Of a stretch of DNA of 40,912 nucleotides, positions 11,701-31,236 are shown in pieces. The stretch lies in the IMG/VR virus record IMGVR_UViG_3300022902_000614, positions 1 to 40,912 of that record; one strand, given 5' to 3'. Position numbers and translations under genes: made by a program. The first letter of the stretch is position 1. Each line of letters opens with the position of its first letter. This stretch comes from a virus. The notes beneath the pieces were generated by a model. The model saw nothing but the letters and a program-made list of their open reading frames with translations. It was not told where the DNA came from and did no database searches.

Positions 11701-12625
11701 AGGAAGTTCTGGAACTTCTGGATCATCTGGTACTGCTGGTTCTTCTGGTTCTTCTGGTTCTGCTGGAACGTCTGGATCTGCGGGAACTTCTGGCTCTGCT
11801 GGTTCTTCTGGAACGTCTGGGACTGCTGGTTCTTCTGGATTAACATATGCATCATCTGGTTCTGCTGGAAGTGCAGGAAGTGCTGGTACTGCTGGAACAT
11901 CTGGCTCTGCTGGAAGTTCTGGAGCTGATGGAGCGCCGACCAGTCCAGCAGGAGCCGCTGGATATGTTCAATATTATGCATCATCATCTTCGCTTGGAGC
12001 GTATTCTGGATATAGAGTAAATGATATTACTACACCAACAGAATTGTATTTTAATGGTGCTATTTTTTCTTCAAGTGGAGTGACTGGATTATCAGCTTTA
12101 AAAGTATATGGAACTTCTGGTTTTGATGGAACAATGACAACTAAGGCCATTGTTCCTGTCGCAAATAATACACACGATATCGGTACATCTACAATGGTAT
12201 ATAACGATATGTATGCGGTTACATTTAATGGAAGAGCAACATCAGCGAGTTGGTCTGACTTGGCCGAGAGATATGAGTCTGATTTGGTATATGATCCAGG
12301 AACTGTTTTATCAATTGGAGGAGAAAAAGAAGTTACTCTATATCAAGCTGAAATGCCTTATGCTGGTGTTGTTTCAGATAATCCTGGATTGAGGATGAAT
12401 GATAGTATGGAACAGAGAAAAAATGAATTTATGATCTTTATTTGTTTGACCGGAAGAATATTAGTTAAGATTGTGGGAAGATGTGTTAAAGGGGACCTTA
12501 TTATGGCTTATAATGATGGTGCAGGAAAATCTATAACTAAATATGAATATAAATCACATAAACACGATTTAATTGGAATAGCATTGTCTGATAGTGATGC
12601 TGGATTTGTTGAAGTGAAAATATGA
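8729..12625 (+). CDS. Collagen-like fibre protein, 1298 residues
   Basis: Residues 1-50 form a Lys/Glu helix. Residues about 54-112 are classic collagen triplets (G-P-K-G-E-K, G-P-Q-G-V-Q). Residues about 160-460, 586-920 and 990-1070 are long Gly-X-Y tracts made almost only of G-S-A, G-S-S, G-T-S and G-T-A, punctuated by G-L-T-Y-A-S-S modules. Two small non-repetitive domains interrupt them (about 461-585 and 921-990); the second has the N-H-N-L-G-V-R-P fibre-tip pattern. The C-terminus (about 1071-1298) has S-W-S-D-L-A-E-R-Y-E-S-D, a domain seen at the ends of marine phage fibres. The probable role is a long trimeric virion fibre or adhesin. Proline is nearly absent from the long tracts, and Ser/Thr could be glycosylated. 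Confidence 0.88.
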   Translation: MKDDQKDLDLSKVLATSLAYTKKQLKKTKEELVEDIKEILDPVTGETVKVLEIKGTVGPKGEKGEKGEKGLAGEVGVKGISGRIGPQGVQGPRGDLGDIGPIGPMGEKGESGDDADVTKLVKELDNFKEVVKKISKKATLTAQRVAGGSGWGESGGGGGGDTSSGSAGSSGSSGLTYASSGSAGSAGSSGISGTAGSAGSAGSAGTSGTSGADGPIGTSGSAGSSGLTYASSGSAGTSGSSGADGPIGTSGSAGSSGSAGSAGSAGSSGTSGSSGISGTAGTSGTAGSSGSTGSAGSAGSAGSAGSSGISGTAGSAGSAGSAGTSGSSGADGPIGTSGSAGSSGLTYASSGSSGSAGSSGSAGTAGSAGSAGSAGSAGSAGSAGSAGTSGSSGTSGSAGTSGSAGSSGLTYASSGSAGSAGSSGSVGTSGSSGTSGSAGSSGSSGTVGTSGSSGHDGGFGGASFAYRYSTDQSTNDPGTGKLAFTLTTGAFTYPTTANRLRISDTDQDGTTIDSFLQTIDDVAFSVPKGHFRIYDKSAPEKYFLYSINEFDTTNPSWYYVDVTFLDSSLNNFQNNTEIVASFARTGDSGTAGTSGSSGSSGSAGSAGSAGSAGSAGSAGTSGSSGSSGSAGSAGSAGSAGSAGSAGSAGTSGSAGTSGSAGSSGSAGSSGSAGSAGSAGSSGSAGTSGSAGTSGSAGSSGSAGTAGSAGSAGSAGSAGSSGSAGSAGSAGSAGSAGSAGSAGSAGSAGSSGSAGSAGSSGSAGSAGSTGSSGSSGLTYASSGSAGSAGSSGSAGTAGSAGSAGSAGSAGSAGTSGSAGTSGSSGSSGSAGSAGSAGSAGSAGSAGSAGTSGSAGTSGSAGSSGSAGSSGSAGSAGSAGSSGSAGTSGSSGTAGSSGSSGSAGTAGSAGSAGSAGSAGSSGQDGGSWIHVQGSASSVWLINHNLGVRPLNIEVVDSNYDVIYPESIRYISSNTAKLVFATAISGWAALTFGEGSSGTSGSSGTAGSSGSSGSAGTSGSAGTSGSAGSSGTSGTAGSSGLTYASSGSAGSAGSAGTAGTSGSAGSSGADGAPTSPAGAAGYVQYYASSSSLGAYSGYRVNDITTPTELYFNGAIFSSSGVTGLSALKVYGTSGFDGTMTTKAIVPVANNTHDIGTSTMVYNDMYAVTFNGRATSASWSDLAERYESDLVYDPGTVLSIGGEKEVTLYQAEMPYAGVVSDNPGLRMNDSMEQRKNEFMIFICLTGRILVKIVGRCVKGDLIMAYNDGAGKSITKYEYKSHKHDLIGIALSDSDAGFVEVKI
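9211..11940 (+). repeat. Low-complexity Gly-Ser-Ala/Thr coding repeat
   Basis: Nine-base units such as GGTTCTGCT and GGAAGTGCT recur hundreds of times in three blocks (about 9211-10100, 10491-11490 and 11700-11940). A longer unit containing TTGACATATGCATCTTCTGG recurs at about 9250, 9410, 9760 and 9950, with close variants near 11050 and 11840. Long copies inside the blocks look duplicated (compare 10500-10680 with 11180-11290). Such DNA expands, contracts and misassembles easily. Long ORFs on the opposite strand here are by-products of the triplet structure. Confidence 0.9.
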
Positions 12626-12805
12626 AAGTATACGATATTGGAATATGCAAATATAACTGATGCACCTTTTTGGGGTAATCTTGATTTTGATAGTGAGATA
12701 GATGAAGAAATGTTATTAAAGAAACTTGGTTCAAGAATCACAAATTTTCTTTATTTGGGAAATGATGATAAATTAATACGGAATAAATTTTGGAGTAAAA
12801 TATAA
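12622..12805 (+). pseudogene. Frameshifted small gene, similar to part of the gene at 30258
   Basis: An ATG at 12622 overlaps the fibre-gene stop in an ATGA arrangement but stops after 12 codons. The +1 frame, open from 12626 to the TAA at 12803-12805, encodes about 59 residues including L-L-K-K-L-G-S-R-I-T-N-F-L-Y-L-G. That closely matches L-L-R-K-L-G-S-K-I-I-N-Y-L-Y-L-G in the protein at 30258-30845. Removing one base near 12634 would join M-K-V-Y to I-L-E-Y-A-N and give an intact ~60-residue protein. It may be a broken gene, a programmed +1 shift or an assembly error. The readable frame is also in frame with the fibre gene, so TGA readthrough is formally possible. Confidence 0.55.
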
Positions 12806-13416
12806 TGGGTTCGCCATGTCCTACCAATTTAACTGGTTTACCTGCACAAGCTGGTACACTAATTCAGCAGTCAGAGATAACTACTTGCAGAACTTCATTA
12901 AATGATGAGTTTACAAGAAGAAGTATAGCGATTTCATCTTGGACCAGCATGGCAGATCCTGTCGCCGCACAAATTTGGAATGAATTGCGTGGAGAAATAG
13001 TAAGTAAGTTATATACCCAAACTCCACCAAGTCCCGCACCAACATTATCTTATGGTGCTGTAAGTGTCGGAGATTTAATAGCCGCCGCACATATAGACGA
13101 TCTGGTAACAAAACTCGATGAATGGAAAGTTGTGTGCGTATGTGATTGTGATTTTTGTCCATGTAATTGTAATTTTTGTCCATGTGATTGTAATTTTTGT
13201 CCATGTGATTGTAATTTTTGTCCATGTAATTGTAATCACTGTCCATGTAACTGTAATTTTTGTCCCTGTAATTGTAATTTTTGTCCCTGTAATTGTAATT
13301 TTTGTCCCTGTAATTGTAATTTCTGTCCTTGTAACTGTAATTTTTGTCCATGTAACTGTAATTTTTGTCCATGTGATTGTAATCACTGTCCATGTAACTG
13401 TAATAACTCGAAATAA
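12805..13416 (+). CDS. Cys-rich heptad-repeat protein, candidate maturation substrate
   Basis: 203 residues with 41 Cys. Residues 1-110 are an ordinary, mostly helical segment with only Cys5 and Cys28. After Cys111, residues 113-196 are exactly 12 heptads C-(N/D)-C-(N/D)-(F/H)-C-P, followed by a partial C-N-C-N-N-S-K end. There is no signal peptide or membrane segment. Three Cys per seven residues, directly followed by two radical SAM/SPASM genes with a third 4 kb on, suggests a peptide substrate with a leader-like N-terminus and a repetitive core. Metal-binding or a disulfide-stapled fibre are alternatives, and the gene follows a fibre gene. Function is inferred from sequence pattern and context. 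Confidence 0.85.
   Translation: MGSPCPTNLTGLPAQAGTLIQQSEITTCRTSLNDEFTRRSIAISSWTSMADPVAAQIWNELRGEIVSKLYTQTPPSPAPTLSYGAVSVGDLIAAAHIDDLVTKLDEWKVVCVCDCDFCPCNCNFCPCDCNFCPCDCNFCPCNCNHCPCNCNFCPCNCNFCPCNCNFCPCNCNFCPCNCNFCPCNCNFCPCDCNHCPCNCNNSK
13141..13413 (+). repeat. 21-bp tandem repeat, 12 full copies plus a partial
   Basis: Units of the type TGTAATTGTAATTTTTGTCCA encode the C-N-C-N-F-C-P heptad without a break. Variation is almost confined to AAT/GAT at two Asn/Asp codons, TTT/CAC at the aromatic codon and the third base of the Pro codon. The low divergence suggests recent expansion or strong homogenisation. Frame is preserved in every copy. Confidence 0.95.
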
Positions 13417-13419
13417 AAA

Positions 13420-14970
13420 ATGAATAATATCCGATTTGATCCTATAAAAGAACAAATGTCACCCGAACAAATGCAACAGCAAATGATGCAAATGCGAAAA
13501 ACGATGGAAGAACAAGAAAAAATGTTAAAACAGATGGGGGGATCAACAATGCCCCAGGGACAGGGTGGTGGTGCAATGTCAAATAATTTTAATCCAATGC
13601 AAAGTTTTAATTTAGATGTTAATGTAACGAGTGAATGTAATCTTGCTTGTACATATTGTTCTGAAGGAGAATCGTGCGGATTGTCATCACAATATCAAGA
13701 AAAAACAGAGATGACTCCTGAAGATATAGAAAAAACAGTTAGGTCATTGGATATGGATAGGTATAGAGATATTAATATAAATTGGTGGGGCGGAGAACCT
13801 TTTGCTAATTTTCTTTTTTGCAAAGATATAATGAAAAGATTGGCTGATACTCAAAAAGTATGTTTTATGTTCTATACTAATGGAACTTATCTTAAAAAGT
13901 ATAAAAAACAGTTAATAGAATTAAAAGGTCTGTTGGGAAATAGATTAGATATGCCGCAACAATCACGTTTACATATTCAAGTATCTTTTGATGGTGAACC
14001 TGTTAATACGATGGAACGTAGAACTAAAGCAGGAGAAAGTGAAAAATTATCTAAAACTGTTTATGCAACTTATAAAGAGTTAAAATCTGATGGTTTTTCT
14101 ATAGGTATTAAAGCAGTCATATCATCTCGCAATTTTAAATATCTTTTTGATGTTTGGAAATGGCATTATGATAATGGAGAATCATATGGACCCACTCCTG
14201 ACACTCACAGTACAGATCCAGATAGAATTGATGGTGCAGTTAAGGAAGAAGAATATATGGGTCACTTAAAGGATCTAAGAGTGAATTTAATGAAAATTGT
14301 GAAATATAGTATAGATCATGATATTAATTTAGAAAATCACTTTAGATGGTTCAGAAAAGAAAAACAAAATTGTGCGGCTGGTATTAATTATCTTTCAATT
14401 GATTTAGACGGTAAAACATATCCTTGTCATGGGTGTATGTATAGACAAAGAGAGGATCATGTAAGAGGCGATTTAATGGAATCTGGTATGCAAATGCAAA
14501 AATTTGTGGATGAAACAACATCATTATATCGTTCTTATTTGGATGAATTTAGAACAGATGGAACATTAGCGTGTAATACATGTACAGCGGATTTTTGTTT
14601 AAAGTGTCCTGCGGGTTCATTTGATGCCGCAGATGCAAAATTTGGTGAAGAACAGGATGCTGGTAAAAAATGGCAAAATCATCCAGCAAATCATCAATTG
14701 TGTCAAGTATGGAAAACACTGGAGCCTGTATCTAAAGCATGGAGAACCCTGTGGATTAAAAAGAATCCGGATTCAATAATTATGATGAATAGACCAGGAA
14801 ATTATTCGCAGGGTCATAATTTAGAAGTCAATTCTATTGAACAGCAAACTCCTGTTATATCTGGTTTATCCAAAGAGCCCACTTCAGAAACGGCCAAGAA
14901 TATAGGTGCAGTTTTTAATATATCAAGCTTACCAAAGAGATCAGAAACTACAGAGAGCAAATATGCCTAG
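13420..14970 (+). CDS. Radical SAM protein with SPASM-type C-terminus (first)
   Basis: 516 residues. Residues 1-60 are a Met/Gln-rich, probably coiled extension not typical of the family. The radical SAM core starts with Cys73-x3-Cys77-x2-Cys80, followed by W-W-G-G-E-P-F (about 124-130), F-Y-T-N-G-T and V-S-F-D-G. The C-terminal part has Cys318, Cys336, Cys339, Cys385, Cys388, Cys393, Cys396 and a later Cys, the pattern of a SPASM domain holding auxiliary Fe-S clusters. SPASM enzymes modify peptides or proteins (thioether, C-C crosslink, epimerisation, formylglycine). It starts 3 bases after the Cys-repeat gene, its likeliest substrate by position. The exact reaction is unknown. Confidence 0.92.
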   Translation: MNNIRFDPIKEQMSPEQMQQQMMQMRKTMEEQEKMLKQMGGSTMPQGQGGGAMSNNFNPMQSFNLDVNVTSECNLACTYCSEGESCGLSSQYQEKTEMTPEDIEKTVRSLDMDRYRDININWWGGEPFANFLFCKDIMKRLADTQKVCFMFYTNGTYLKKYKKQLIELKGLLGNRLDMPQQSRLHIQVSFDGEPVNTMERRTKAGESEKLSKTVYATYKELKSDGFSIGIKAVISSRNFKYLFDVWKWHYDNGESYGPTPDTHSTDPDRIDGAVKEEEYMGHLKDLRVNLMKIVKYSIDHDINLENHFRWFRKEKQNCAAGINYLSIDLDGKTYPCHGCMYRQREDHVRGDLMESGMQMQKFVDETTSLYRSYLDEFRTDGTLACNTCTADFCLKCPAGSFDAADAKFGEEQDAGKKWQNHPANHQLCQVWKTLEPVSKAWRTLWIKKNPDSIIMMNRPGNYSQGHNLEVNSIEQQTPVISGLSKEPTSETAKNIGAVFNISSLPKRSETTESKYA

Positions 14971-16291
14971 TTATCAATTAGAAATATCTGTAACAGAAAA
15001 ATGCAATTTGGGGTGCCCGTATTGCTATGTTGCTAATGTTGATAAATTTATGACTCCTGAAATTTTTGATAAGGCTTGGCCAGAATTTTTACAATTAATT
15101 CAAAGATCAAAAGCCCATGGTCAACAATTTCATTTATCTTTTTTTGGGGGCGAACCACTATTAAATGTGCCATTGATGGATCATGTTTGTAAAAAAGTTA
15201 AAGTTCCTGAATATGAGGATAGATTGGTTGGTCTTACTATGATATCTAATCTATCGTTAATTAACGAAGAAACTGCTGATTGGATATTAGATAATCAGAT
15301 TGGAGTTAGTTGGAGTTTTGATGGTATATCAGCAAACGAATCAAGACCTATTATTAAAAATTTTGGAGAGAATAAAGGATACAATAATGTTTTAGAGATG
15401 TACAGTGATAGACAACATCTTATAAAGAAAGTTACAAAACATAATAAAACATGTAAAATTATGATATTTCCAGGCAATGTTGATTCAATGACAGAAAATT
15501 TTGAATTTTTAGTAGATTTCGGTATTCCTGCTCCTGATTTTTCTATTGTAAGAGATGATATTTGGTCCCTAGACGATATTCATAAATTTAGAGTGGAATG
15601 TCGAAGACTGGCAGATAGAACCATACAATATTATGATGAAGGAAAATTAATATCTAATGGAATGTTTAATCTTCCCCTACAAGACATGTTATTAGGATTA
15701 ACTAAACAAAAACGAGCATTCGGGTGTTTTGCTGGTCATCATGGTTCTATTATGGCAGTAGATGGAACATTTTATCCATGTGCAAGATTTGGCTCAAAGA
15801 AATTATTACCAATGAAAGGCGATGAATATAATTTTGATTATTTTCAATCTGTATTTAATCCTTTAGCATTTGATAAATGTAAAGGATGTAGATTATATAA
15901 AGTGTGTAATGCAGGTTGTACATATTCGCAATTAAGAAATGGTAATCAACCAATCGATTCTGTGTGCGAATTGTTTCATATATATTATGATGAAGCGATA
16001 AGAATGGTAGAAATATGTAAAGATATGCCAACTTTTCAAACATATATTAAGACGCTTTGGGGGGGTAGGACAGGATTTTATGAGCCAAATGCAGATAAAG
16101 AAGAAGTAGATATGTTTGAGATGATAGATGAGGCGTGGCAAAAGAATGAAAAATATAAAAGGTTAACAAATTTTAAAATTAAAACTGAAGAAAAAATTAA
16201 ATCTTTTGATTATAAGGATTATAATTCGACCTTGGCTTTTTTACAATCTAAAGATAATCATAACATAAAGAAACTTCAAAGAGGTACTTGA
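14963..16291 (+). CDS. Radical SAM/SPASM protein (second)
   Basis: Start set at the ATG at 14963, which overlaps the previous stop and gives M-P-S-Y-Q-L-E-I-S-V-T-E-K-C. This places Cys14-x3-Cys18-x2-Cys21 near the N-terminus, as in peptide-modifying radical SAM enzymes; an upstream in-frame start at 14906 would add 19 unlikely residues. F-F-G-G-E-P lies near residue 63 and S-F-D-G near 117. The SPASM part has Cys255, Cys273 and then C-K-G-C-R-L-Y-K-V-C-N-A-G-C, a complete auxiliary-cluster set. The two enzymes in a row may act in sequence or as a complex on the Cys-repeat protein. 443 residues. Confidence 0.93.
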   Translation: MPSYQLEISVTEKCNLGCPYCYVANVDKFMTPEIFDKAWPEFLQLIQRSKAHGQQFHLSFFGGEPLLNVPLMDHVCKKVKVPEYEDRLVGLTMISNLSLINEETADWILDNQIGVSWSFDGISANESRPIIKNFGENKGYNNVLEMYSDRQHLIKKVTKHNKTCKIMIFPGNVDSMTENFEFLVDFGIPAPDFSIVRDDIWSLDDIHKFRVECRRLADRTIQYYDEGKLISNGMFNLPLQDMLLGLTKQKRAFGCFAGHHGSIMAVDGTFYPCARFGSKKLLPMKGDEYNFDYFQSVFNPLAFDKCKGCRLYKVCNAGCTYSQLRNGNQPIDSVCELFHIYYDEAIRMVEICKDMPTFQTYIKTLWGGRTGFYEPNADKEEVDMFEMIDEAWQKNEKYKRLTNFKIKTEEKIKSFDYKDYNSTLAFLQSKDNHNIKKLQRGT

Positions 16292-16304
16292 GAAGAAAGG
16301 TTTT

Positions 16305-17126
16305 ATGGGAATATTTGATGAACCAGTAGTAGACACCAGAACTGCGGACACTGGCGGTCCCACAAAATATTTGCCTGGATATTTAATAGATCGTAAGGAT
16401 GTAACAGTATATCAATTTAGGTCTAATTTGTTTATCATAAAAGATATTGATCATCTTATTGATTTAACGGTATTAAATCATGTAATTGAAAAAACGACAG
16501 GTATTGAAAATTGTGGTAATATGATAGGTGATTTTATCATTATTAAAAATACAGAGAAATCATCAAAATCTTTTAGATTAATATTGAATAACTTTTTATC
16601 TAAATTTGGATTAGTGTATGATCATATGTCTGGGTTACCAACAGAAGTTTATGAAAATCTTAATAGACTTGGTGCTTTACAGATAGGCCACATAGAAATT
16701 AAAGATCATCAAAAAGATATTGTTGAATGTGGAATAGAACCGTTGGTTAGTGGAATTAATATATTTGATGGTGTTGATGTTATAGAATCGTGTGAGGGCC
16801 ATTACGATCAAAACGATCCCGCATATGATACAGACTGGCAATGTTGTGCGTATATAGTTTTTACTGTAGATTCAATGAAAAATTTAAATATTTTTTCGTC
16901 TTCCATAGAAAAAAATATTAAAATTATGTGGAACTATTTTAAATTATTTAACCATGAAGATTGGTCAACAAAAGCGTGGTTTGAAAAAAATGGATTAATG
17001 CTAACGTTTGATGGGGGCAATTCTGATACTCAATTTGAATTTGCTTACAAATATATGGCTATTGAACAAGAAAGAGTATTTGAACAGATAAAATATCTTG
17101 GAAAATTGTTACATGGAAAAAAATAA
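16305..17126 (+). CDS. SCEGH-motif protein (paralogue 1)
   Basis: 273 residues, unknown function. The central part has I-E-P-L-V-x-x-I-N-I-F-D-G-V-D-V-I-E-S-C-E-G-H, shared with the protein at 26964-27764 (I-K-P-L-V-x-x-F-N-V-F-D-G-I-R-T-F-G-S-C-E-G-H). The two also share a C-terminal plan with a hydrophobic helix followed by L-x-L-T/S-F-D/N-x-G. The Ser-Cys-Glu-Gly-His cluster looks like an active or metal site, but I cannot name a reaction. It has its own ribosome site (AAGAAAGG). Having one copy in each half of the island suggests a shared helper or enzymatic role. Confidence 0.85.
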   Translation: MGIFDEPVVDTRTADTGGPTKYLPGYLIDRKDVTVYQFRSNLFIIKDIDHLIDLTVLNHVIEKTTGIENCGNMIGDFIIIKNTEKSSKSFRLILNNFLSKFGLVYDHMSGLPTEVYENLNRLGALQIGHIEIKDHQKDIVECGIEPLVSGINIFDGVDVIESCEGHYDQNDPAYDTDWQCCAYIVFTVDSMKNLNIFSSSIEKNIKIMWNYFKLFNHEDWSTKAWFEKNGLMLTFDGGNSDTQFEFAYKYMAIEQERVFEQIKYLGKLLHGKK

Positions 17127-17523
17127 AATACACGGAACTCCAGAAGAACTAAATGATCTAGATCGTGAAGAAGGATGGCATCCTGCGATTTCAGGACAAG
17201 AGGCTGTAATAAATAATAAAAATAAAAAATCAGTAGAGCGATATGAAAAATCGGCAAGGGCCGCAAAAGACGGAGATATTCAAACTCTTATTAATCAAGT
17301 ACAGCTAGAAGACACCCCATCAAAAAAACAAGCGAGAGATAAAAATTTACTTTATGATTCTTGGAATCCTGAATCAGATGGTACAAGAATAAAGTCACAT
17401 TTATTTAATTATAACATTGATTTTCCTAGACTTATGAAAAACATAGCATATATTCTAAAACAAAATCCAGAAGAACAAATCCGCAGAAAACTGGACGAAA
17501 GACCAGTTGTAAGGGGAAAATAG
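17113..17523 (+). CDS. Small charged protein of unknown function
   Basis: 136 residues from the ATG at 17113, which overlaps the preceding gene by 14 bases; a TTG at 17098 would add five residues. It is rich in Lys, Glu, Asn and Asp with little hydrophobic core, so it may be partly disordered or helical. The N-terminus reads M-E-K-N-K-I-H-G-T-P-E-E-L-N and the C-terminus is Arg-rich. It lies directly before the third radical SAM gene, sharing one base with it, so it may be a partner of that enzyme. No domain recognised. Confidence 0.75.
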   Translation: MEKNKIHGTPEELNDLDREEGWHPAISGQEAVINNKNKKSVERYEKSARAAKDGDIQTLINQVQLEDTPSKKQARDKNLLYDSWNPESDGTRIKSHLFNYNIDFPRLMKNIAYILKQNPEEQIRRKLDERPVVRGK

Positions 17524-18875
17524 TGAAAACACTAACACGCTCTAAAAAAGTTTTACCCACCATGGGATCTCTTGATGGTGTTATTGATTATGAACGAGGA
17601 TTGAAAACAGGAGAAGGTGTATGTAAATATGAAAAACATGATGTTAAAAAATTATTAACTCTAACTGATCGTGAATTGAATCAAGTAGTAAAACAACATG
17701 TAGAAAGCGTATCAAAAGATGAACATTATGACCGTGTTAAAGCACTAAAAGAAGGAAGACTTGATTTAGCAGAAGCCAATGTTAATGAAATTATGGATAG
17801 ACATTTTACTCATGGTGAAAACGAAAATACAAGAGTTGCACACGGTGGAGGTATACATTTATTTTATATGACAAGTCAATGTAATTTAAATTGTTCTTAT
17901 TGCTATGAACATTTAGAAAATCGACCAAAACATTTACCCGAACCACCATTGTTGAAAAAACTTGTAGATGATATTAATAAAACCGATAGACCAGATGAAC
18001 AAACTTTATTTTGTATTTTTGGTGGTGAACCGATGTTAGAATGGAAAAATTGTGAATATCTTATGAATTATGCATATTCTCAGAAGCACAATTTACATTT
18101 CAATATAACAACTAATGGTATACTTTTAAGTAAGCCAAAATTTTTTAATAGTGTTATTACTTTTTTGGAATCTAATCCAGGAATTAAACAACGGGTTTCT
18201 TTTGATATTAGTTTTGATGGTGCAGGAAATTTAGATAGGGTATATTATTCTGGTAAAGATTCTACTCCAGATGTATTAAAAGCATTTAAAAATATTTCAG
18301 ATTATAATTCCAATATGCCACCCCAAGACCAAATTAAATGGAGGGCCAGGTATACTATTCACAGATCAAATGTACAATGTTTTGCTAAGGATATTTTGCG
18401 TATAGTCAAGACATATGGACCGGATAGAGTTGTTACATCTATAGATGAAAGTTTAGCGGGTAAAGATAGTCCCGAAGATAAAGCAAAAATTAATTGGTTA
18501 TTAAAAGAACAGATAGATTATTTACGGAAACAATGGATAAAAAATAAATTATTTTCTCCTGTATGCCACATGTTTTGTGATATGTGTAATTCTTGTGGAG
18601 AACGTAAAGATCATAGATTTTATTATACAGAACAAGGATTGGCATCAATACAAAATGGATTAGTGAGAGTAGGAAAAGGAATGAAACATCTTCCTGATGC
18701 AGGAGATAAAGAAGAAAAAAATAGAATATTGCCTAGAACCGGTCATCCGACAACTGCTATTGATAGATTGGGAATAATAGATACCTCTGGCCAGGGTTCT
18801 GGTTTAGATCACATAGCAGAAGAAATGCTTGAAACCCAAAAAAGAAATTTCCCCAGAGAGATAAATCATGAGTGA
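17523..18875 (+). CDS. Radical SAM protein (third), reduced C-terminal Cys cluster
   Basis: 450 residues from a GTG start that overlaps the previous stop by one base. About 110 residues precede the core: Cys120-x3-Cys124-x2-Cys127 in M-T-S-Q-C-N-L-N-C-S-Y-C-Y-E, then F-G-G-E-P-M and I-S-F-D-G. The C-terminal region has C-H-M-F-C-D-M-C-N-S-C-G but lacks the spread-out Cys set of a full SPASM domain. It may hold one auxiliary cluster, like a shortened SPASM or Twitch domain. It differs clearly from the first two, so the island has three distinct radical SAM enzymes rather than recent copies. The substrate is unknown. Confidence 0.9.
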   Translation: MKTLTRSKKVLPTMGSLDGVIDYERGLKTGEGVCKYEKHDVKKLLTLTDRELNQVVKQHVESVSKDEHYDRVKALKEGRLDLAEANVNEIMDRHFTHGENENTRVAHGGGIHLFYMTSQCNLNCSYCYEHLENRPKHLPEPPLLKKLVDDINKTDRPDEQTLFCIFGGEPMLEWKNCEYLMNYAYSQKHNLHFNITTNGILLSKPKFFNSVITFLESNPGIKQRVSFDISFDGAGNLDRVYYSGKDSTPDVLKAFKNISDYNSNMPPQDQIKWRARYTIHRSNVQCFAKDILRIVKTYGPDRVVTSIDESLAGKDSPEDKAKINWLLKEQIDYLRKQWIKNKLFSPVCHMFCDMCNSCGERKDHRFYYTEQGLASIQNGLVRVGKGMKHLPDAGDKEEKNRILPRTGHPTTAIDRLGIIDTSGQGSGLDHIAEEMLETQKRNFPREINHE

Positions 18876-23357: not shown

Positions 23358-23710
23358 TAGGTATTGATTTACAAACAATCGAACCTATTCAAAAGATATA
23401 TGATAAATGGGGAGACAAATTTGTTAATAAAATATTAACAGATATTGAAAAAAGAAATGCGCCCAGTCCTATGACTGCTAGATATTTAACTAAATGTTGG
23501 TGTGTTAAGGAAGCATATTCTAAAGCAATAGCTTCACCTTATTTAAGATTAGATGTTAGTTACATGCATTTGACAAGCAGGGGGGTTCGATTTCCTGTTG
23601 TACATGCTTCAGTATCGAAAGAATACAAAGGCCCAAGACAAGATGTAAGAATATCATTGTCTGATACAGATGAATATGTAGTAGGAGTTTGTTATATATG
23701 GGCTCATTAG
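23336..23710 (+). CDS. acpS: Holo-ACP synthase (4'-phosphopantetheinyl transferase, AcpS type)
   Basis: 124 residues, the AcpS size. Mg-binding I-G-I-D with Asp11, and W-C-V-K-E-A-Y-S-K-A with Glu59 and Lys63, are the two family signatures. The C-terminal I-S-L-S-D-T-D-E-Y-V-V-G strand matches the S-x-S-H region. It moves phosphopantetheine from coenzyme A to the carrier serine, here presumably Ser41 of the ACP three genes upstream. It overlaps the polyketide synthase gene by 22 bases. A phage bringing its own activating enzyme implies that the host AcpS does not serve this ACP well, or that the module is self-contained. Confidence 0.9.
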   Translation: MSARENLIGIDLQTIEPIQKIYDKWGDKFVNKILTDIEKRNAPSPMTARYLTKCWCVKEAYSKAIASPYLRLDVSYMHLTSRGVRFPVVHASVSKEYKGPRQDVRISLSDTDEYVVGVCYIWAH

Positions 23711-24447: not shown

Positions 24448-25205
24448 TATTTAATTCGTCTGATTGGAATTCTAAATCAATTGTAGATAGTTTTAAAAAT
24501 ACTGGTTTTTTATTAGTAGTAAATCCTTTTATTGATATGAAAGGATCATTAGAACAATTACGTGAAAAATTAAAAGCGGCGGATTTAAAGACATTACCTA
24601 TGTACGAAGAAGGTCGATCAAGTTCAAAAAGGTTTCCCGGAGAAGCAAACGAAAGAGTTGTTCTAAAAAATATGTCTGATGATTGGGAGTGCGTAAATAC
24701 TATAAGGAGCCAATATATAAAAGTTGGGTGTGATATATTATATGCTATTGAAGAATATATGAAATTGCCGCCTAATTCAATAACACTGAAACACGAGAAA
24801 TCAAGTAATGATTTGATATTTGTAAAATATTATAAAGATCAAATAGGAAATAATCGATTAGGCAGTCATTGTGATTTCGGAACATTGACATTAGTGCATG
24901 TATGTGATCCTGTAGAAGAATATGAAGTATGCATTGATGGCGAATGGACTTTGATAAAACATCCTGGTGATGATTTTATAATAGTTAATTGTGGTGATTT
25001 TATGCAGTGGTGGACCCAAAATAAATTAAAATCTACTCCCCATAGGGTATCAAATTCAACAAAAAAAGAACGACATAGTTTGATCATGTTTATGGACATA
25101 GATCACGAATCTCAAGTACATGGAATGACAAAACAGCAATGGAACGATATCAGAGTGAAAGAATCAATAACAGAAAAACAAACTTATCATGATTTTGGAG
25201 AATAA
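24429..25205 (+). CDS. 2OG-Fe(II) oxygenase, isopenicillin-N-synthase-like
   Basis: 258 residues. The iron ligands His147 and Asp149 (S-H-C-D-F-G-T-L-T) and His205 (T-P-H-R-V-S-N), plus Arg-x-Ser (R-H-S, about 215-217) for 2-oxoglutarate, give the full 2OG-FeII_Oxy (PF03171) site. The preceding N-terminal part (D-S-F-K-N-T-G-F-L-L-V) resembles the DIOX_N region. Members hydroxylate, desaturate or cyclise small molecules or peptides. It overlaps the desaturase gene by 19 bases, so it probably acts on the same product. The substrate cannot be read from the sequence. Confidence 0.88.
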   Translation: MAPSSIVFNSSDWNSKSIVDSFKNTGFLLVVNPFIDMKGSLEQLREKLKAADLKTLPMYEEGRSSSKRFPGEANERVVLKNMSDDWECVNTIRSQYIKVGCDILYAIEEYMKLPPNSITLKHEKSSNDLIFVKYYKDQIGNNRLGSHCDFGTLTLVHVCDPVEEYEVCIDGEWTLIKHPGDDFIIVNCGDFMQWWTQNKLKSTPHRVSNSTKKERHSLIMFMDIDHESQVHGMTKQQWNDIRVKESITEKQTYHDFGE

Positions 25206-25206
25206 C

Positions 25207-25479
25207 ATGGGCAATATAGAAAAAGTAAGTGAAATATTAAAGACATCACTTGAAAATACGATTTATGGTTCATACCCGGGTGGATGTCAGGAATGGATTG
25301 CTCTTATTGCAACTGCGGGTCAACCAGAAAATAAGAAAGAAGAAATAATATTGGACTGTTTGAATAATTTATCCGAACAGTTTAATTTAACAAGTCGCGG
25401 AAAAGTTACAGGAGATGTAACTTTGTGGCAACAGCAATTAGCACAAACTTTACAGAGTGCGGATTTTCTATCAAAATGA
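25207..25479 (+). CDS. Small protein, unknown, between oxygenase and desaturase
   Basis: 90 residues from the ATG at 25207, which has TTGGAG 6-8 bases upstream; an ATG at 25189 would add six residues and lacks such a site. It looks helical with a G-S-Y-P-G-G-C-Q-E-W-I turn near residue 22 and a Gln-rich C-terminal helix. One Cys besides the initial region, no membrane segment, no recognised family. It could be an accessory subunit. The stop overlaps the next ATG (ATGA). Confidence 0.68.
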   Translation: MGNIEKVSEILKTSLENTIYGSYPGGCQEWIALIATAGQPENKKEEIILDCLNNLSEQFNLTSRGKVTGDVTLWQQQLAQTLQSADFLSK

Positions 25480-26213
25480 CACATCAAATAGGTGTAAGAA
25501 TACTTTTGATATTGAATCATATTTTAGCAGTAATAGGAATTATATATTCTCCATTGCCGTGGTATCTATGGATTCCTATTGGATTTTTATTGTTTGGTAA
25601 ATTTGGAAGTGAAATAGGTAATCATAGGTATGTTGCGCATAACTCTTTTGAGACAGGTCCAATAAGACATTTTTTGTTATCAACATTAGGAATATTTAAT
25701 TGTTATGGTTCCCCTATCTCCTGGGCTATAGCGCATAGGGCCCACCATATGAATTCTGATGAAGAATTAGATCCCCATTCACCTCATATTATTTCTTGGT
25801 GGAGGGTTTGGTTAACATTGTGGCGGAAAGTTAATTTGCCCATAAAACACTATGCTGATTTATTAAAAGATCCGATATACAAAAAAAGCCATAAATATTA
25901 TTTTTATATCATAGGTATAACTTTTTTACTATTGTCATTAATAGATTGGAGATTGCCTGTGTTTTTAATTAGTATACCCAGTGTAGGAATTATTCATGGC
26001 GCGGCATTAGTTAATATTGTATGTCATAAATGGGGTTATCGTAATTTTGAAACTACAGATAAAAGTACAAACAATTGGTGGGTTAATGATTTAACATTAG
26101 GAAGTGGATTGCATAATAATCATCATCAAGATCCTAGTAATTGGGATGAAAATGTAACAGGAAAAGAAAGGGACTATTGTGGGAAGTTTATTAAAAATTA
26201 TCTCAAAGTATAA
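25476..26213 (+). CDS. Membrane fatty-acyl desaturase (second)
   Basis: Start at the ATG at 25476, giving M-T-H-Q-I-G-V-R-I-L and 245 residues; an upstream TTG would add 17 unlikely residues. His boxes: H-R-Y-V-A-H, H-R-A-H-H and H-N-N-H-H. Membrane pairs lie near residues 8-45 and 145-180. It is a close paralogue of the next gene: W-G-Y-R-N-F-E-T-T-D-K-S-T-N-N is identical in both proteins, including a 39-base identical DNA tract. The aromatic residue after H-R-Y differs among the three desaturases, possibly reflecting different positions or chain lengths. Confidence 0.92.
   Translation: MTHQIGVRILLILNHILAVIGIIYSPLPWYLWIPIGFLLFGKFGSEIGNHRYVAHNSFETGPIRHFLLSTLGIFNCYGSPISWAIAHRAHHMNSDEELDPHSPHIISWWRVWLTLWRKVNLPIKHYADLLKDPIYKKSHKYYFYIIGITFLLLSLIDWRLPVFLISIPSVGIIHGAALVNIVCHKWGYRNFETTDKSTNNWWVNDLTLGSGLHNNHHQDPSNWDENVTGKERDYCGKFIKNYLKV
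26037..26075 (+). repeat. 39-base direct repeat, copy 1 (in desaturase 2)
   Basis: Identical over 39 bases to 26773-26811, in the matching place of the neighbouring desaturase gene, while flanking sequence has diverged strongly. Suggests gene conversion or strong constraint on the encoded Y-R-N-F-E-T-T-D-K-S-T-N-N segment. Confidence 0.9.
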
Positions 26214-26967
26214 TAATTCATGGCAAGCATATTTTAGCTTCATGATTTTATTTCATATTGCATCAGTAATAGGATTGTTATATAGTTCATGGTACTGGCT
26301 GTGGTTAACTCTTGTAGGAGTTATATTGTTTCGACATATAGGAGGAGAAATAGGCGCCCATAGATATTTTGCGCATAGAAGCTTTAAAGCAAAATCTTGG
26401 GCCCATAAATTTATGGCTATATGCGGAATCTTTATATACCAAGGAACTCAATTTCCGTGGGTTGCATTTCATAGATATCATCATGAGAAATCTGACACAC
26501 CTGAAGATCCTCATTCGCCACATTATTTAAGTCCTTTTGATGTATGGTTTACTAATTGGAGACAGGAAATATATGAACATAGACTGTATGCTGATCTTGT
26601 GAAAGATCCGTTCTTAAAATTATTACATAGAAATTATTTGACTATAGTTGTTCCACCACTTGTTTTAACTGCATTAATTGATTGGAGAATACCTGTTTTC
26701 TTTTTTGCATTACCTAGTATTATAACACTTCATACTGGAGGTTTAGTTAATACTATAGGACACATGTGGGGCTATCGTAATTTTGAAACTACAGATAAAA
26801 GTACAAACAATACACTCGGGCAATGGTTGTCTGGTTTTACTGGATCAATGTTACATAATAATCACCATTATGATCCTAGTGCATATAATACGAAAATGTC
26901 AGATAAATGGTATGAGACAGATTTTTTAAATGTTTTTATTATAGAGAAATTTTTGAGAAAAATATGA
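26179..26967 (+). CDS. Membrane fatty-acyl desaturase (third)
   Basis: 262 residues from a GTG at 26179 with AAAGGGA about 6 bases upstream, overlapping the previous gene by 35 bases. An ATG at 26242 would start at the first membrane helix and is less convincing. His boxes H-R-Y-F-A-H, H-R-Y-H-H and H-N-N-H-H are intact. It is a tandem duplicate of the second desaturase but retains the complete active site in its own version. It overlaps the second SCEGH gene by 4 bases. Two or three sequential desaturations of one chain are possible. Confidence 0.9.
   Translation: MGSLLKIISKYNNSWQAYFSFMILFHIASVIGLLYSSWYWLWLTLVGVILFRHIGGEIGAHRYFAHRSFKAKSWAHKFMAICGIFIYQGTQFPWVAFHRYHHEKSDTPEDPHSPHYLSPFDVWFTNWRQEIYEHRLYADLVKDPFLKLLHRNYLTIVVPPLVLTALIDWRIPVFFFALPSIITLHTGGLVNTIGHMWGYRNFETTDKSTNNTLGQWLSGFTGSMLHNNHHYDPSAYNTKMSDKWYETDFLNVFIIEKFLRKI
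26773..26811 (+). repeat. 39-base direct repeat, copy 2 (in desaturase 3)
   Basis: Second copy of the identical tract also found at 26037-26075. Every synonymous position in the tract is the same in both genes, which exceeds what protein constraint alone requires. Confidence 0.9.
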
Positions 26968-27764
26968 TTACAATTAATACGTGGAGACAGAATTATATTA
27001 TTGTACATGATCCTGATTCGAAAATTCGAGTGGACCTGTTAAATAAGTTATTAATTTCATTAGTAGATAAGATTAGCGGTAATGATCAAGACATTGAACG
27101 AGCGAAAAGAAAAAAAGAATATGTATTAATTTGTGGACATGCTAATCTAAAATATGAACTATTAATAAGTGTTTTTAGTGAATTTCTTAAAAAATATGAA
27201 ATTGGTTATAATTGGAAAGATATAAATTCTACTGAAGATATAGCCTTATTTAATGAATTAGACCTTTTGCCAACTGAAGATTTGTCTAGTGGTTCTATGG
27301 GAGGAGGTGTGACCAATGATACTTTTGAAATAGAAACGGGCATTAAGCCGTTAGTTGATGTTTTCAACGTGTTTGATGGTATTAGAACTTTTGGATCATG
27401 TGAGGGACATTTAATTAATGAATCATCACAGAGTAGAGCATATGTAACATGGACAGCGTGTTCAATTGATGGATTAAATTATTTAACTGCTCTTTTAAGA
27501 ACTGCTATTAATAAAGTTTGGGAAAAAAATGAATTGGTTGATAATGAAAATTTTAATTTTCTACAAACGAACAATAGAATTACGTTAAGTTTTAATACTG
27601 GATTTTGGAAACCAGCATTATTACGAACTGCACCATTACCGGGTGAAAATTATTATGAATTTATCTTTACGTATAATTTTGATCTTCAGAAATTAGTATT
27701 TGATATAATAAAAGACATTGCAGAAGATATGGGAAATGAAAAATATGAACGGAGTAAGCAATGA
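26964..27764 (+). CDS. SCEGH-motif protein (paralogue 2)
   Basis: 266 residues and homologous to the protein at 16305-17126 over the central and C-terminal parts. Shared features are I-K-P-L-V, F-N-V-F-D-G-I, the S-C-E-G-H cluster and the late L-S-F-N-T-G strand. The N-terminal 90 residues differ and are Lys-rich. Unknown function. The ATG overlaps the desaturase stop and its own stop overlaps the next ATG (ATGA). It could be a partner of the oxygenases that follow, just as paralogue 1 follows the radical SAM pair. Confidence 0.84.
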   Translation: MITINTWRQNYIIVHDPDSKIRVDLLNKLLISLVDKISGNDQDIERAKRKKEYVLICGHANLKYELLISVFSEFLKKYEIGYNWKDINSTEDIALFNELDLLPTEDLSSGSMGGGVTNDTFEIETGIKPLVDVFNVFDGIRTFGSCEGHLINESSQSRAYVTWTACSIDGLNYLTALLRTAINKVWEKNELVDNENFNFLQTNNRITLSFNTGFWKPALLRTAPLPGENYYEFIFTYNFDLQKLVFDIIKDIAEDMGNEKYERSKQ

Positions 27765-28888
27765 AAACTAGTAAAATACCCGGACTCGGTGATTATGGTC
27801 GATTTATAGATGATATATCATTAGCAGAAATGTCTGATAATGATTGGATAGAACTAGGAAAAGACCATCTTACTGATTTAGTAACAATCATTAGAGGTGT
27901 TGATATTCATCCTAATGAATTTGAACGAAAAATGATTCTTTGGGGTGATCCTTTTATTTTAGATGGATATAGGATTAGAAAAAAATATAAAGAGAAATTG
28001 GGAATAAGCAATTTCTATAGTCTATTTAAACGTAATCTTATAGAAGACGAAGACCGAAAACATGCAGAAGATTTAGCTTGGATGGGGGCCGGAGGTGATG
28101 AATTTATAGGGGAAAAGATTCCTTGGAAATCTCAACTACACCGTATATCTGGTATAAAAGAAAACGGAAAGGCCATAGGAATGTTTGCTGAAGGAGAATT
28201 GCTTTGGCACTCTAATGAACCGGGATCAATTGTATTTAATCCAGGAATTGCTTTAATGGGCATAAAAGGAATGGTTGGTACTTCAACAGGATTTGCTACT
28301 ACTGCTTCTTGGTACGAGAAGCAAAGAGATTCTTTTAAAAGAGAATTAGATGATATGACCATCATTTTTAAATATCAGAATTATGAAACTGCGCCTGAAA
28401 TTGACAAAGATCAAGATGATTTATTTCGGTGGAATCAAACGTTTGAACCGATTGAACTTCCACTGGTCATTACATCTCCTGGAGGAATAAAAGGACTACA
28501 CTATTCTCCTGGCACCGTAGAGAGAACTAAGTTTTTAGATGATTTAGACAAAGAATTATTTGTAGATGAATATATTTATCACCATAAATATCAGCAAAAT
28601 AATGATATATGTATTTTTGATAATTCTATAACTTTACATAATAGAATAGGTCCTGTAGATGAACGAGTAGCATACCGTACACCATGTAATTATTGTCATT
28701 TAATTCCTGAAGATTATAACTATTATTCTCAAGAACCCTATAAAACACAATTTACAGAAACACGTAAAGATATACGAAACATTCTTAATTTACAGTCCCG
28801 TGTTGAAGATACTATGGTTTATAACAAATTTATGAAGCCTATGATCCCTGAAAGAGAATGGAAAAACAACGATTTAGTGAGGAAATAG
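27761..28888 (+). CDS. TauD/TfdA-like dioxygenase with altered ligand motif
   Basis: 375 residues. The W-H-S-N-E-P-G segment (His150, Asn152) sits where TauD-family enzymes have W-H-x-D, followed by G-M-V-G-T-S-T-G-F-A-T, the family's G-G-x-T region. Distal His293 in N-S-I-T-L-H-N-R and the later A-Y-R-T arginine complete the usual site. Asn in place of the Asp ligand is unusual; it may bind iron weakly, permit different chemistry as in halogenases that lack this carboxylate, or mark a degenerate enzyme. About 100 extra N-terminal residues are unassigned. It overlaps the Rieske gene by 31 bases. Substrate unknown. Confidence 0.82.
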   Translation: MKTSKIPGLGDYGRFIDDISLAEMSDNDWIELGKDHLTDLVTIIRGVDIHPNEFERKMILWGDPFILDGYRIRKKYKEKLGISNFYSLFKRNLIEDEDRKHAEDLAWMGAGGDEFIGEKIPWKSQLHRISGIKENGKAIGMFAEGELLWHSNEPGSIVFNPGIALMGIKGMVGTSTGFATTASWYEKQRDSFKRELDDMTIIFKYQNYETAPEIDKDQDDLFRWNQTFEPIELPLVITSPGGIKGLHYSPGTVERTKFLDDLDKELFVDEYIYHHKYQQNNDICIFDNSITLHNRIGPVDERVAYRTPCNYCHLIPEDYNYYSQEPYKTQFTETRKDIRNILNLQSRVEDTMVYNKFMKPMIPEREWKNNDLVRK

Positions 28889-29751
28889 AAAAAATATTCT
28901 TAAAAGGAATGTTTGTAGATTCTGGGTATCGTTCATTACGTAAAAATGATTATCACAGTTTTCTTATAGGAAAACACCCAGTTGTTGTTAGAGATGGTGC
29001 TGTTTATGATAATGTTTGTGACCATAGACTTTCCTTAATACACCCCCTAGGATATGGTAATCAAGAATTTGTATGTGGTTATCATGGTAAAGACCAGTCT
29101 CATGCAAAACAATATCCTCATTACAGATATAAAAATTTATTGTTTGTAGGTGAACACGATCCTTCAATGATTTCTTTATTACGCAAATATAATTATAAAG
29201 CCAATAATCATTTTTTTCATTACGAGTTGAAAATTAACGCAAATTGGAAATTATTTGTTGAAAATGTTATAGAATACCAGCATGTAAAACACGTACATAA
29301 AGAATCTAAAAATATGTTAAAACCATTTCTTTCATTAGACCATATTCCAGAACAAATAAGATATGGAAAACATTCATTAGAACGAATAGTTTCAGAAGCA
29401 CCTCAACGATATAAAAAATATATTGATGAATGGAAATGGGAAAATATCTATATATTTCCTAATTTGTTTATATCAAATATTTCTGATATTGTGACGTTTA
29501 TTGGTTATTTTATTCCCGAAAAACATAATGAAACAACAGTAGTATATGAAGGATATTTTAATAAAGAAGGTATGGATGAACGAATGGCGGACGTTATAAA
29601 AACGAGTGCGAAAAACTTTGTACCGACCATTTTATCAGAAGATAAACCCTTTATTGAAAGTTGCCAATATGGTAAAATAGCAAAACCGTTTACTAAATAC
29701 CTTTTAGAAGAAGAAAAACGAATAGACTGGTTTTTGGAAGCATTAAAGTAA
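28858..29751 (+). CDS. Rieske non-haem iron oxygenase
   Basis: 297 residues. The N-terminal Rieske [2Fe-2S] domain has Cys54-x-His56 and Cys73-x2-His76 with standard spacing. The catalytic domain opens with N-W-K-L-F-V-E-N-V-I-E-Y-Q-H-V-K-H-V-H, giving bridging Glu139 and iron ligands His142 and His147. A later S-E-D-K region may supply the third ligand. It is shorter than typical ring-hydroxylating oxygenases (350-450) and nearer to small single-component types. No ferredoxin or reductase gene is seen in the window, so electrons presumably come from the host. Reactions range from hydroxylation to desaturation and demethylation. Confidence 0.9.
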   Translation: MEKQRFSEEIEKIFLKGMFVDSGYRSLRKNDYHSFLIGKHPVVVRDGAVYDNVCDHRLSLIHPLGYGNQEFVCGYHGKDQSHAKQYPHYRYKNLLFVGEHDPSMISLLRKYNYKANNHFFHYELKINANWKLFVENVIEYQHVKHVHKESKNMLKPFLSLDHIPEQIRYGKHSLERIVSEAPQRYKKYIDEWKWENIYIFPNLFISNISDIVTFIGYFIPEKHNETTVVYEGYFNKEGMDERMADVIKTSAKNFVPTILSEDKPFIESCQYGKIAKPFTKYLLEEEKRIDWFLEALK

Positions 29752-29760
29752 GGATATAAA

Positions 29761-30261
29761 ATGGGAAGAATTACTGAAGAATTTCCGACTATAGATACAT
29801 CTCCTCTGTGGTCAAAGTTAAAAATGGAAGATGAACTAGATGATGATACATTATTAATAGAACTTCATTGTTTAATTCATTCAACATCAAAGATTAGATT
29901 TACAAAAGAGACTATCATAGATGATACTCAATATACAGATGATACCGTAGAAGAAGGTCGAACATATATCGATAAACAATTACATCCTGGACCTGATCAT
30001 ATTCATTCGTATTCTACGAGAATAAATACTATAATAAATGGATATAATTCGTTAGCAACGAAATATGGTCAAGAACATTTTGATGCTTTTCTTGAAAATT
30101 TATATACATCATATCCTACTGTTGATCCTAATAGTTCCGTGATGGAATATTTACAGCAAAGTAAGGAGGGGAGGCCTCAATTTCATATGAAATGGGCATA
30201 TATTTATGATTTTATGCATAGTATAACGGAATATTTTGACCGAAAAGGAATATCATTATGA
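29761..30261 (+). CDS. Hypothetical acidic protein
   Basis: 166 residues with no recognised domain. His/Asp-rich segments (L-H-P-G-P-D-H-I-H-S-Y near residue 74, and C-L-I-H-S) could bind metal but match no family I know. The C-terminal part is helical and aromatic (W-A-Y-I-Y-D-F-M-H-S). It has a spaced ribosome site (TAAGGA) nine bases after the Rieske stop and an ATGA overlap with the following gene. Confidence 0.75.
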   Translation: MGRITEEFPTIDTSPLWSKLKMEDELDDDTLLIELHCLIHSTSKIRFTKETIIDDTQYTDDTVEEGRTYIDKQLHPGPDHIHSYSTRINTIINGYNSLATKYGQEHFDAFLENLYTSYPTVDPNSSVMEYLQQSKEGRPQFHMKWAYIYDFMHSITEYFDRKGISL

Positions 30262-30845
30262 CTCCCGAAGAACGAAGAACAATATTTAAAACTGCTTGGA
30301 CGAATTCTCTCAAAAAAGATTTATATCCTACACATCTTAATGGTTCTAATATTGCGATTAATCATTTTCTTATGAATGTATCCTTATCTTTATTTCCTGA
30401 TAATAATATTAATTCTGACTTAGATATGGAACAATATGAAATTCATGCAGTTCAGATGATGAGAGCCATTAAGAATGATTTACAACAAACAGGTGCAACA
30501 ATACATACATTTAACGAGCAATCATTAGATGAACTTCCTGATTCTGCTTATGGACTACCTGTTTTTGTTATTTTAGAAAATCCTCTTTTGTTAAGAAAAT
30601 TAGGCAGTAAAATTATAAATTATTTGTATTTAGGTGACGATTTATTAATGGATTCGTTTTTAGGTAGTGTTCTTCATTGGGAAAATTGGAAATTAAATCC
30701 AGAATGGAAACCTCGCTTATTATTTTGGGTCGAACTTCCATTTGATGGTGTTAAAAAAATGCATGTTGGGGATAAATGGTTTAGACCTTATGATTCAGCA
30801 GATAAACTTATTTGGGATGATTTTTGGAGCGGAATATGCCTTTAA
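30258..30845 (+). CDS. Hypothetical protein with LGS-LYLG motif
   Basis: 195 residues, unrecognised. Residues about 108-127 (L-L-L-R-K-L-G-S-K-I-I-N-Y-L-Y-L-G-D-D) match the fragment encoded at 12626-12805, at the other end of the island. The C-terminus is Trp-rich (L-H-W-E-N-W-K-L-N-P-E-W, L-I-W-D-D-F-W-S-G), suggesting a binding or structural role. Like its neighbours it is joined by 4-base and 10-base overlaps. The similarity between the two island ends may indicate a duplication. Confidence 0.76.
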   Translation: MTPEERRTIFKTAWTNSLKKDLYPTHLNGSNIAINHFLMNVSLSLFPDNNINSDLDMEQYEIHAVQMMRAIKNDLQQTGATIHTFNEQSLDELPDSAYGLPVFVILENPLLLRKLGSKIINYLYLGDDLLMDSFLGSVLHWENWKLNPEWKPRLLFWVELPFDGVKKMHVGDKWFRPYDSADKLIWDDFWSGICL

Positions 30846-31210
30846 CAGAGAGCGGAATAGAGATAGAAGCAACATTAACAATAGTTGATAATGAATTTGT
30901 ATTGGATTGTGATATTGAACCTGTTCCAGATTTAACAGACTTTCATAAAATACATTTACAAACATCATCGTTAATATGCACTTTTGATCCTACTACATCT
31001 GGATATGTTAAAAATGAATATAAACACACTGCTAATAATTCAACATTGCTTTCTTTGGTTTCATGTGCTGGGCAATGGGCAGAAGATTATATGTGGTATT
31101 TTGATTTTGATGAATCCATATATGATCAAGTTAAAACACTTTTAGATGAAAAAAATATAATTTACCATTTACCTAATGACTTTGGCATGATTTTAGGAAA
31201 AATGATTTAA
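30836..31210 (+). CDS. Hypothetical protein, last gene of the island
   Basis: 124 residues from the ATG at 30836 (GGAG 9 bases upstream); an in-frame TTG at 30824 is less likely. It looks like a small beta-rich protein: E-I-E-A-T-L-T-I-V-D, F-V-L-D-C-D-I, I-H-L-Q-T-S. Two aromatic strands follow (Y-M-W-Y-F-D-F-D-E-S). No family recognised. After it comes a 60-base gap with a late promoter, marking the return to head-assembly genes. Confidence 0.74.
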   Translation: MPLTESGIEIEATLTIVDNEFVLDCDIEPVPDLTDFHKIHLQTSSLICTFDPTTSGYVKNEYKHTANNSTLLSLVSCAGQWAEDYMWYFDFDESIYDQVKTLLDEKNIIYHLPNDFGMILGKMI

Positions 31211-31228
31211 CACAAAGGACATGGATTA

Positions 31229-31236
31229 TATAAATA
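31229..31236 (+). promoter_or_regulatory. T4-type late promoter (TATAAATA) at the island's right edge
   Basis: Exact consensus octamer, 34 bases before the next start codon, in the only real gap after 12.8 kb. A 7-of-8 match (TATAAATT, 31235-31242) overlaps it. It would restart transcription of prohead genes independently of the island. Confidence 0.8.

Follow-up and report, generated by a model that had tools for sequence, protein, structure and literature searches.

The 40,912-base record IMGVR_UViG_3300022902_000614, analyzed at its whole length and called the window here, is a fragment of a T4-like phage. It raises the question of what is made by ~24 overlapping genes that lie at positions 12805-31210, all on the plus strand, and extend from a collagen-like fiber gene to the genes preceding gp21; at the corresponding place, HTVC008M and Melnitz have just 3-4 short open reading frames (ORFs). 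On balance, we favor the answer that the first half of these genes (module 1) encodes a Cys-heptad protein that is crosslinked by radical S-adenosylmethionine (SAM) enzymes and tied to the tail fiber, and that the second half (module 2) directs the synthesis of an unsaturated, oxidized polyketide lipid. The phage itself was placed by a profile search, in which homologs of gp20 (portal), gp21 (protease), gp22 (scaffold) and gp23 (capsid) were found in T4 order. It is related to Kyanoviridae, and its gp23 shares 60-64% identity with gp23 of SAR11, OM43 and other marine T4-like phages (64% with that of HTVC008M).

An intact gene island present in several phage lineages

The initial annotation, an earlier reading of this sequence, had described a gene island in the head region. 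An intact island does lie between the collagen-like fiber gene and gp21, and its right bound at 31210 is retained. The proposed left bound had to be moved, since 12622 onward are the final 4 bases of the fiber gene and the island genes begin at 12805. Nearly all enzyme families that had been read from motifs are supported by Pfam/NCBIfam profiles together with catalytic motifs, and the ORF list shows overlapping genes throughout 12805-31210. The further description also agrees with our data: no mobile-element family appeared in the Pfam/NCBIfam profile searches, and the G+C content of the island (0.30-0.34) is like that of its flanks.

A chimera or other assembly artefact, which the initial annotation had named as a possible objection, is ruled out by two near-identical contigs that span the island and by the presence of the island in other lineages. 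Contig 3300028706_000589 shows 7 mismatches to the window in 35,460 bp, and contig 3300025584_000341 shows 2 in 36,673 bp (0 gaps in both cases; 99.98-99.995% identity across the island). Recurrence between the fiber and gp21 genes, which had been proposed as support for a system, was observed: at least three other lineages have the island at this position. The island lies within the same flanking genes, as far as the contigs extend, in lineage 2 (G003, G008 and G009) and lineage 3 (G004); its left edge is visible in lineage 4 (G006/G007) and in a further lineage represented by L067, the contigs of which end in or near the Cys repeats.

Island genes are under purifying selection. Among the island genes tested, the ratio of nonsynonymous to synonymous polymorphism (pN/pS) ranges from 0.01 to 0.52, compared with 0.15-0.17 for four genes of the backbone. 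These values indicate that the island genes are maintained, though many of them change faster than head genes, and, together with intact catalytic motifs, they rule out decaying genes. As the initial annotation had supposed, no described phage system with such a gene set was found in a search of open-licence papers; neither the combination of a Cys-repeat protein with three radical SAM enzymes nor the lipid/polyketide set occurs in any described phage system found there.

A Cys-heptad protein retained with three radical SAM enzymes

The first gene of the island (12805-13416) encodes the Cys-heptad repeat protein, in which an N-terminal domain of ~108 amino acids (aa) is followed by 12-13 repeats of [ND]C[ND]xC[PT]C and which contains 41 Cys. 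The sole family with a low-E match to it is PHROG_26958 (E 1.4e-22), to which gp140 of Campylobacter phage CP220 belongs; gp140 has 534 aa, and its heptads are of the CDCNYCTC type. The match covers the linker helix and heptads (E 5.4e-17, profile positions 269-338 of 534), where the window protein and its Campylobacter relative share 48% identity over 50 aa. The N-terminal 109 aa gave no match to profile positions 1-268, and ~290 aa stand ahead of the repeats in gp140 versus ~108 aa in the window protein. A tblastn search with the heptad protein against a collection of 50,697 phage records, which may omit records close to the window genome, returned no match, probably because of the BLAST low-complexity filter, as the PHROG profile did find the relative. 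The Cys-heptad DNA pattern is absent from the 84,980 bacterial and archaeal species genomes searched. In phages CP21 and vB_CjeM_WX1 (H68/H71), the Cys-heptad protein is labelled 'N-acetylneuraminate pyruvate lyase', probably a misannotation.

Three radical SAM enzymes had been proposed downstream, and Pfam/NCBIfam matches support all of them: rSAM1 (13420-14970), rSAM2 (14906-16291) and rSAM3 (17523-18875). The motif test for radical SAM/SPASM proteins comprised a CX3CX2C core together with CX9-15GX4C and CX2CX5CX3C. SPASM motifs are present in rSAM1 and rSAM2 of all lineages, in exact form in rSAM2 of three lineages and as the variant CX2CX4CX2C in rSAM1; rSAM3 lacks SPASM and has a CX3CX2CX2C tail in its place. 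The nearest curated family of rSAM2 is PapB (NF047865), the cut-off of which (340 bits) is not reached by rSAM2 (135.5), rSAM1 (75.4) or rSAM3 (62.9), and its nearest solved structure is 5wgg, which we regard as the SCIFF thioether maturase CteB. PapB-type ranthipeptide maturases and related radical SAM-SPASM systems (NF047865, TIGR03974, TIGR04115) for ribosomally synthesized and post-translationally modified peptides (RiPPs) thus share with the window the radical SAM core, the SPASM Cys motifs and a Cys-rich neighboring gene. The window differs from them in that all curated cut-offs are far missed, three enzymes accompany one candidate substrate, the 41-Cys heptad array is without CX3D, and the genes lie in a phage structural region. 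The CX3D crosslink motif defines PapB-type ranthipeptide substrates, and the heptad repeat region, with 0 such motifs, does not qualify as a CX3D-type PapA substrate.

Each of the three enzymes pairs with a different radical SAM protein of CP220. The best matches are gp136 for rSAM1 (E 2e-27), gp023 for rSAM2 (33% identity, E 9e-61) and gp099 for rSAM3 (E 1e-18), and a phylogenetic tree agrees (support 91/86, 100/99 and 87/89), its motif filter having taken in just five CP220 radical SAM proteins and its rSAM3 group uniting two of them. On the basis of profile, motifs and tree, rSAM1 and rSAM2 are regarded as orthologs of gp136 and gp023, and rSAM3 as related to gp099. The gp136 gene is 2.2 kb from gp140; the partners of rSAM2 and rSAM3 lie far from gp140 and have nevertheless been kept. 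In the phage collection, the heptad gene and rSAM1-3 were all strongly found in the same 15 records, all of them Firehammervirus, and in no others; weaker rSAM1 and rSAM2 matches outside these records are generic. Since the 15 records belong to one genus and include some duplicates, they represent one independent co-retention rather than 15. None of the other accessory genes of the island, lipid genes included, was found in a search of the CP220 genome (one Campylobacter phage), so the core of module 1 consists of the heptad protein and the three radical SAM enzymes. Members of Firehammervirus (CP220, CPt10, IBB_35 and others) therefore resemble the window in being T4-like and in having a homologous linker with heptads (gp140) and rSAM1-3 orthologs. 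They differ from it in that rSAM2 and rSAM3 are unlinked and the N-terminal region is larger and different, and CP220 is without the lipid module. The 21-bp repeats of the gp140 gene and, separately, 11 radical SAM proteins of CP220 were noted by Timms et al. (PMC2853527), and papers on the Firehammervirus repeat and radical SAM proteins draw no link between them (PMC2853527, PMC3322345).

This pattern of retention bears on whether the enzymes act on the heptad protein at all. If the protein were unmodified and either metal-binding or disulfide-linked, the radical SAM enzymes would serve other substrates; the CxC and CxxC spacing all along the repeats would fit such a role, and CP220 has further radical SAM proteins without an assigned use (PMC2853527). 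This is decidedly unlikely, because in two distant phage groups the three radical SAM enzymes and the heptad gene have been kept one to one, even where they are unlinked.

The gene neighborhood points to the fiber. The collagen-like fiber gene (8729-12625), with GSAGSS repeats and a conserved C-terminal domain, is the neighbor of the Cys-heptad gene in every lineage seen, directly or via the genes u29761-u30258. In the window, these two genes belong to the trio u29761-u30258-u30824 at the right end of the island (29761-31210), relatives of which lie between the fiber and Cys-heptad genes in other lineages. The 179 bp between the fiber and heptad genes (12626-12804) consist of three fused pieces of u29761-u30258 genes, which match L067 DNA over 85 bp (87% identity), 48 bp (77%) and 38 bp (84%), with 39.7 bits versus a shuffle maximum of 21.9. 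This scar ends exactly at the heptad start codon and holds one open frame of ~60 codons, and u29761-u30258 genes occupy its place in L067 and other lineages. Evidently, judging from these sequence matches, the genes were deleted in place between the fiber and heptad genes, and the scar reveals an older gene order. In Firehammervirus, the heptad gene adjoins RNA ligase/tail-fiber attachment and baseplate genes. From the neighborhood in every lineage and these tail-assembly neighbors, we infer an association with the fiber.

Module 1 was also found in a more distant T4-like phage, G005 (gp23 61%). Here, the trio, the heptad gene, rSAM1 and rSAM2 are located ~14 kb from gp23, beside a fiber C-terminus and not between gp20 and gp21. 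Between G004 and G005, the heptad protein is 81%, rSAM1 94% and rSAM2 92% identical, versus 46-64% for backbone proteins, which indicates that module 1 moved between phages as a unit. A different reading of module 1 is a freely released RiPP that targets the host or rival cells; its leader would be the N-terminal domain, and the proximity to the fiber would be incidental. RiPP loci usually have this layout, with radical SAM/SPASM enzymes next to a Cys-rich peptide, and lysis would free the product without an exporter. Nevertheless, the N-terminal part is conserved and has ~108 aa (~290 aa in the Campylobacter relative), no protease, transporter or immunity gene is recognizable, and the heptad gene still adjoins the fiber gene after transfer into another phage. 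We consider a released RiPP unlikely.

Under the fiber-associated reading, the [ND]C[ND]xC[PT]C repeats would be the target of S-adenosylmethionine radical chemistry by rSAM1-3, which would introduce crosslinks or other modifications, most likely Cys thioethers. The modified repeats may form a stiff, protease-resistant rod, which the constant N-terminal domain would anchor at or near the tail fiber encoded just before.

A probable polyketide-lipid gene set with a separate history

Module 2 starts with an acyl carrier protein (ACP) with a DSIH site (21483-21734). It is followed by a short-chain dehydrogenase/reductase (SDR; 21727-22332), a type III polyketide synthase (PKS; 22329-23357), an AcpS-type phosphopantetheinyl transferase (23336-23710), desaturase 1 (23689-24447), a 2-oxoglutarate (2OG)-Fe(II) oxygenase supported by Pfam (24429-25205), a small conserved protein (25189-25479), desaturase 2 (25425-26213) and desaturase 3 (26179-26967), and further downstream by a TauD-family oxygenase (27761-28888) and a Rieske oxygenase alpha subunit with profile and motif support (28858-29751). 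Desaturases 1 and 2 have Pfam matches and motifs; desaturase 3 has no Pfam match and was recognized by its His boxes and 46% identity to desaturase 2. The ACP, transferase, PKS, SDR and three desaturases of the initial annotation are thereby upheld, with the SDR just under the Pfam cut-off (26.3 versus 26.6 bits). The four different iron oxygenases are likewise upheld, the fourth being an AspH-type hydroxylase (20723-21505; Pfam E 1.2e-7) in the first half, which was not found in the other lineages compared. The order ACP-SDR-PKS-AcpS is held in three lineages, with TauD inserted in one, and the desaturase count ranges from 3 in the window to 7 in G004. In L020 (contig 3300009703_000012), seven tandem desaturases replace the three.

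The PKS has both Pfam domains (N and C) above cut-off, the Cys-His-Asn triad (C137/H270/N303) and GPG. It scores 70 bits against the DpgA family (NF042429; cut-off 425, not reached), and its closest PDB relative is an alkyl-pyrone synthase. It shares the catalytic triad and fold family with bacterial type III PKSs (Mycobacterium tuberculosis Pks11, 1u0m, CylI, DpgA) and differs from them in being encoded by a phage, along with desaturases, an ACP and an AcpS. In the phage collection, just one type III PKS turned up, that of Streptomyces phage ZL12, and it is 24% identical to the window enzyme. The TauD-family protein scores 35.6 bits against a Pfam cut-off of 27 and matches PHROG_24590 (E 3.5e-65). 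Catalytic motifs are intact in the module 2 enzymes except for the HSN of TauD.

In the pathway we propose, AcpS would prime the ACP, DesC-like enzymes would desaturate the ACP-borne acyl chain, and the type III PKS would extend it with malonyl units. The SDR and the 2OG, TauD and Rieske oxygenases would then reduce or oxidize the chain, and the product may be an unsaturated alkyl-pyrone- or resorcinol-like lipid formed during infection. The variation in desaturase number (3 to 7) also suits polyunsaturated or polyyne-like acyl-ACP chains, or a retuning of host membrane lipids, with the PKS serving only for condensation. Bacterial polyyne clusters have this layout of an ACP with several desaturases. 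We regard this alternative as doubtful: no fatty acyl-AMP ligase or thioesterase was found, the PKS has the complete triad of a type III enzyme, and the solved structures closest to it are presumably of enzymes that make pyrones or resorcinols.

The initial annotation had joined the halves into a single peptide-lipid system. Their adjacency is confirmed, as they stand side by side in the three lineages showing both; the joint system is not, being split by CP220 gene content and by a break in identity. Window and lineage 2 DNA are 91% identical over 21453-24426 (ACP to desaturase), above the 82% of the backbone; in the peptide half, identity falls to 69% or no alignment is possible, and the ACP gene marks the break. 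This break, together with the module 1 core without lipid genes in CP220, indicates that the halves have separate histories. An integrated pathway, in which the module 2 lipid would be attached to the modified heptad protein to give a lipidated fiber, could appeal to the contiguity of the modules and to the occurrence of one SCEGH paralog per half. It is very improbable given that CP220 has the module 1 core without any module 2 gene and that the modules differ in identity level between lineages.

Several points count against our two-module interpretation. The repeat gene CPT_0180 is not among the published CP220 virion bands (11 proteins), the AlphaFold2 model of the Cys-heptad protein failed (predicted local distance difference test, pLDDT, 37) and was left unused, and metal binding is a conceivable role of the heptad protein. 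In module 2, TauD has WHSNE where HxD is usual; the E after N recurs in G003, G004 and the lone G010 relative, and the iron site may be altered. Neither an acyl-ACP ligase nor a Rieske reductase is encoded, and with no ligase to load the ACP, host acyl donors would be needed. In addition, oxygen-sensitive radical SAM enzymes beside an oxygen-needing module 2 argue against one concerted pathway.

Surrounding genes and relation to known phages

The remaining genes of the first half are SCEGH paralog 1 (16305-17126), a small conserved module 1 protein (17098-17523) and three conserved genes starting at 18868, 19779 and 19989 (18868-20726). SCEGH paralog 2 (26964-27764; PHROG_21654/7413) lies in the second half; the two are homologous (23% identity, E 6e-11), as had been annotated. 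A fold search with the model of paralog 2 (pLDDT 63.5) returned four viral proteins at E <= 0.001, of which two carry names and are uncharacterized; no PDB match fell below 0.001. The family shows fold likeness (E 6e-5 to 1e-3) to small uncharacterized phage proteins, including two Erwinia phage proteins. Weak recurring matches to Prp/YsxB-like proteins (E about 0.02) are not claimed as an identity.

A T4-type late promoter consensus, TATAAATA, is located at the right island edge (31229-31236, plus strand). Further matches occur at 3965 and 33481 and none within the island, where sigma-70 promoters and terminators were not above chance. Elsewhere in the window, a 140-aa ORF on the minus strand (3494-3916) occupies the 500-bp gap between gp17 and gp18. 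A second accessory block after gp23 (36171-40581), read by eye as two methyltransferase-like genes, two GNGxSR-type paralogs and a glycosyltransferase, is kept in lineages 2 and 3. A lineage 2 phage, L048 (contig 3300048886_001579), has a permuted two-piece transfer-messenger RNA (tmRNA) at 4728-5142 with the tag ANNNDYYPAQVALAA, which, used as a host clue, gave no match in the 84,980 species genomes. Permuted tmRNA is present in some SAR11/OM43-type phages (PMC9004378).

Marine T4-like phages (HTVC008M, Mosig, P-HM1/2) have 2OG oxygenases, a TauD relative (34-36%) and a desaturase in common with the window. Unlike the window, they have no block with ACP, AcpS and PKS, and their TauD relatives and desaturase are solitary. 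In Mosig, a cultured SAR11 phage (MT647606.1, 59771-60310), a fatty-acid desaturase stands alone, and one match to radical SAM exceeds the family cut-off. Judged against the phage collection and literature searched, module 2 would be the first phage block with a type III PKS, ACP, AcpS and desaturases.

The radical SAM set of Campylobacter phages (11-12 genes) was termed highly unusual in 2010 (PMC2853527). Part of this set gains a testable role, since, in phages that can be cultured, three of its enzymes can now be paired with one candidate substrate. We propose, tentatively, that in T4-like phages infecting unrelated hosts a virion component is built from a ribosomally made Cys-heptad protein on which three dedicated radical SAM enzymes place crosslinks, in the marine lineage beside a phage-encoded polyketide-lipid pathway. 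If this is true, phages would apply radical RiPP-type chemistry to a fiber-associated protein, and post-translational radical chemistry would serve virion architecture, which would be a kind of system without a described precedent.

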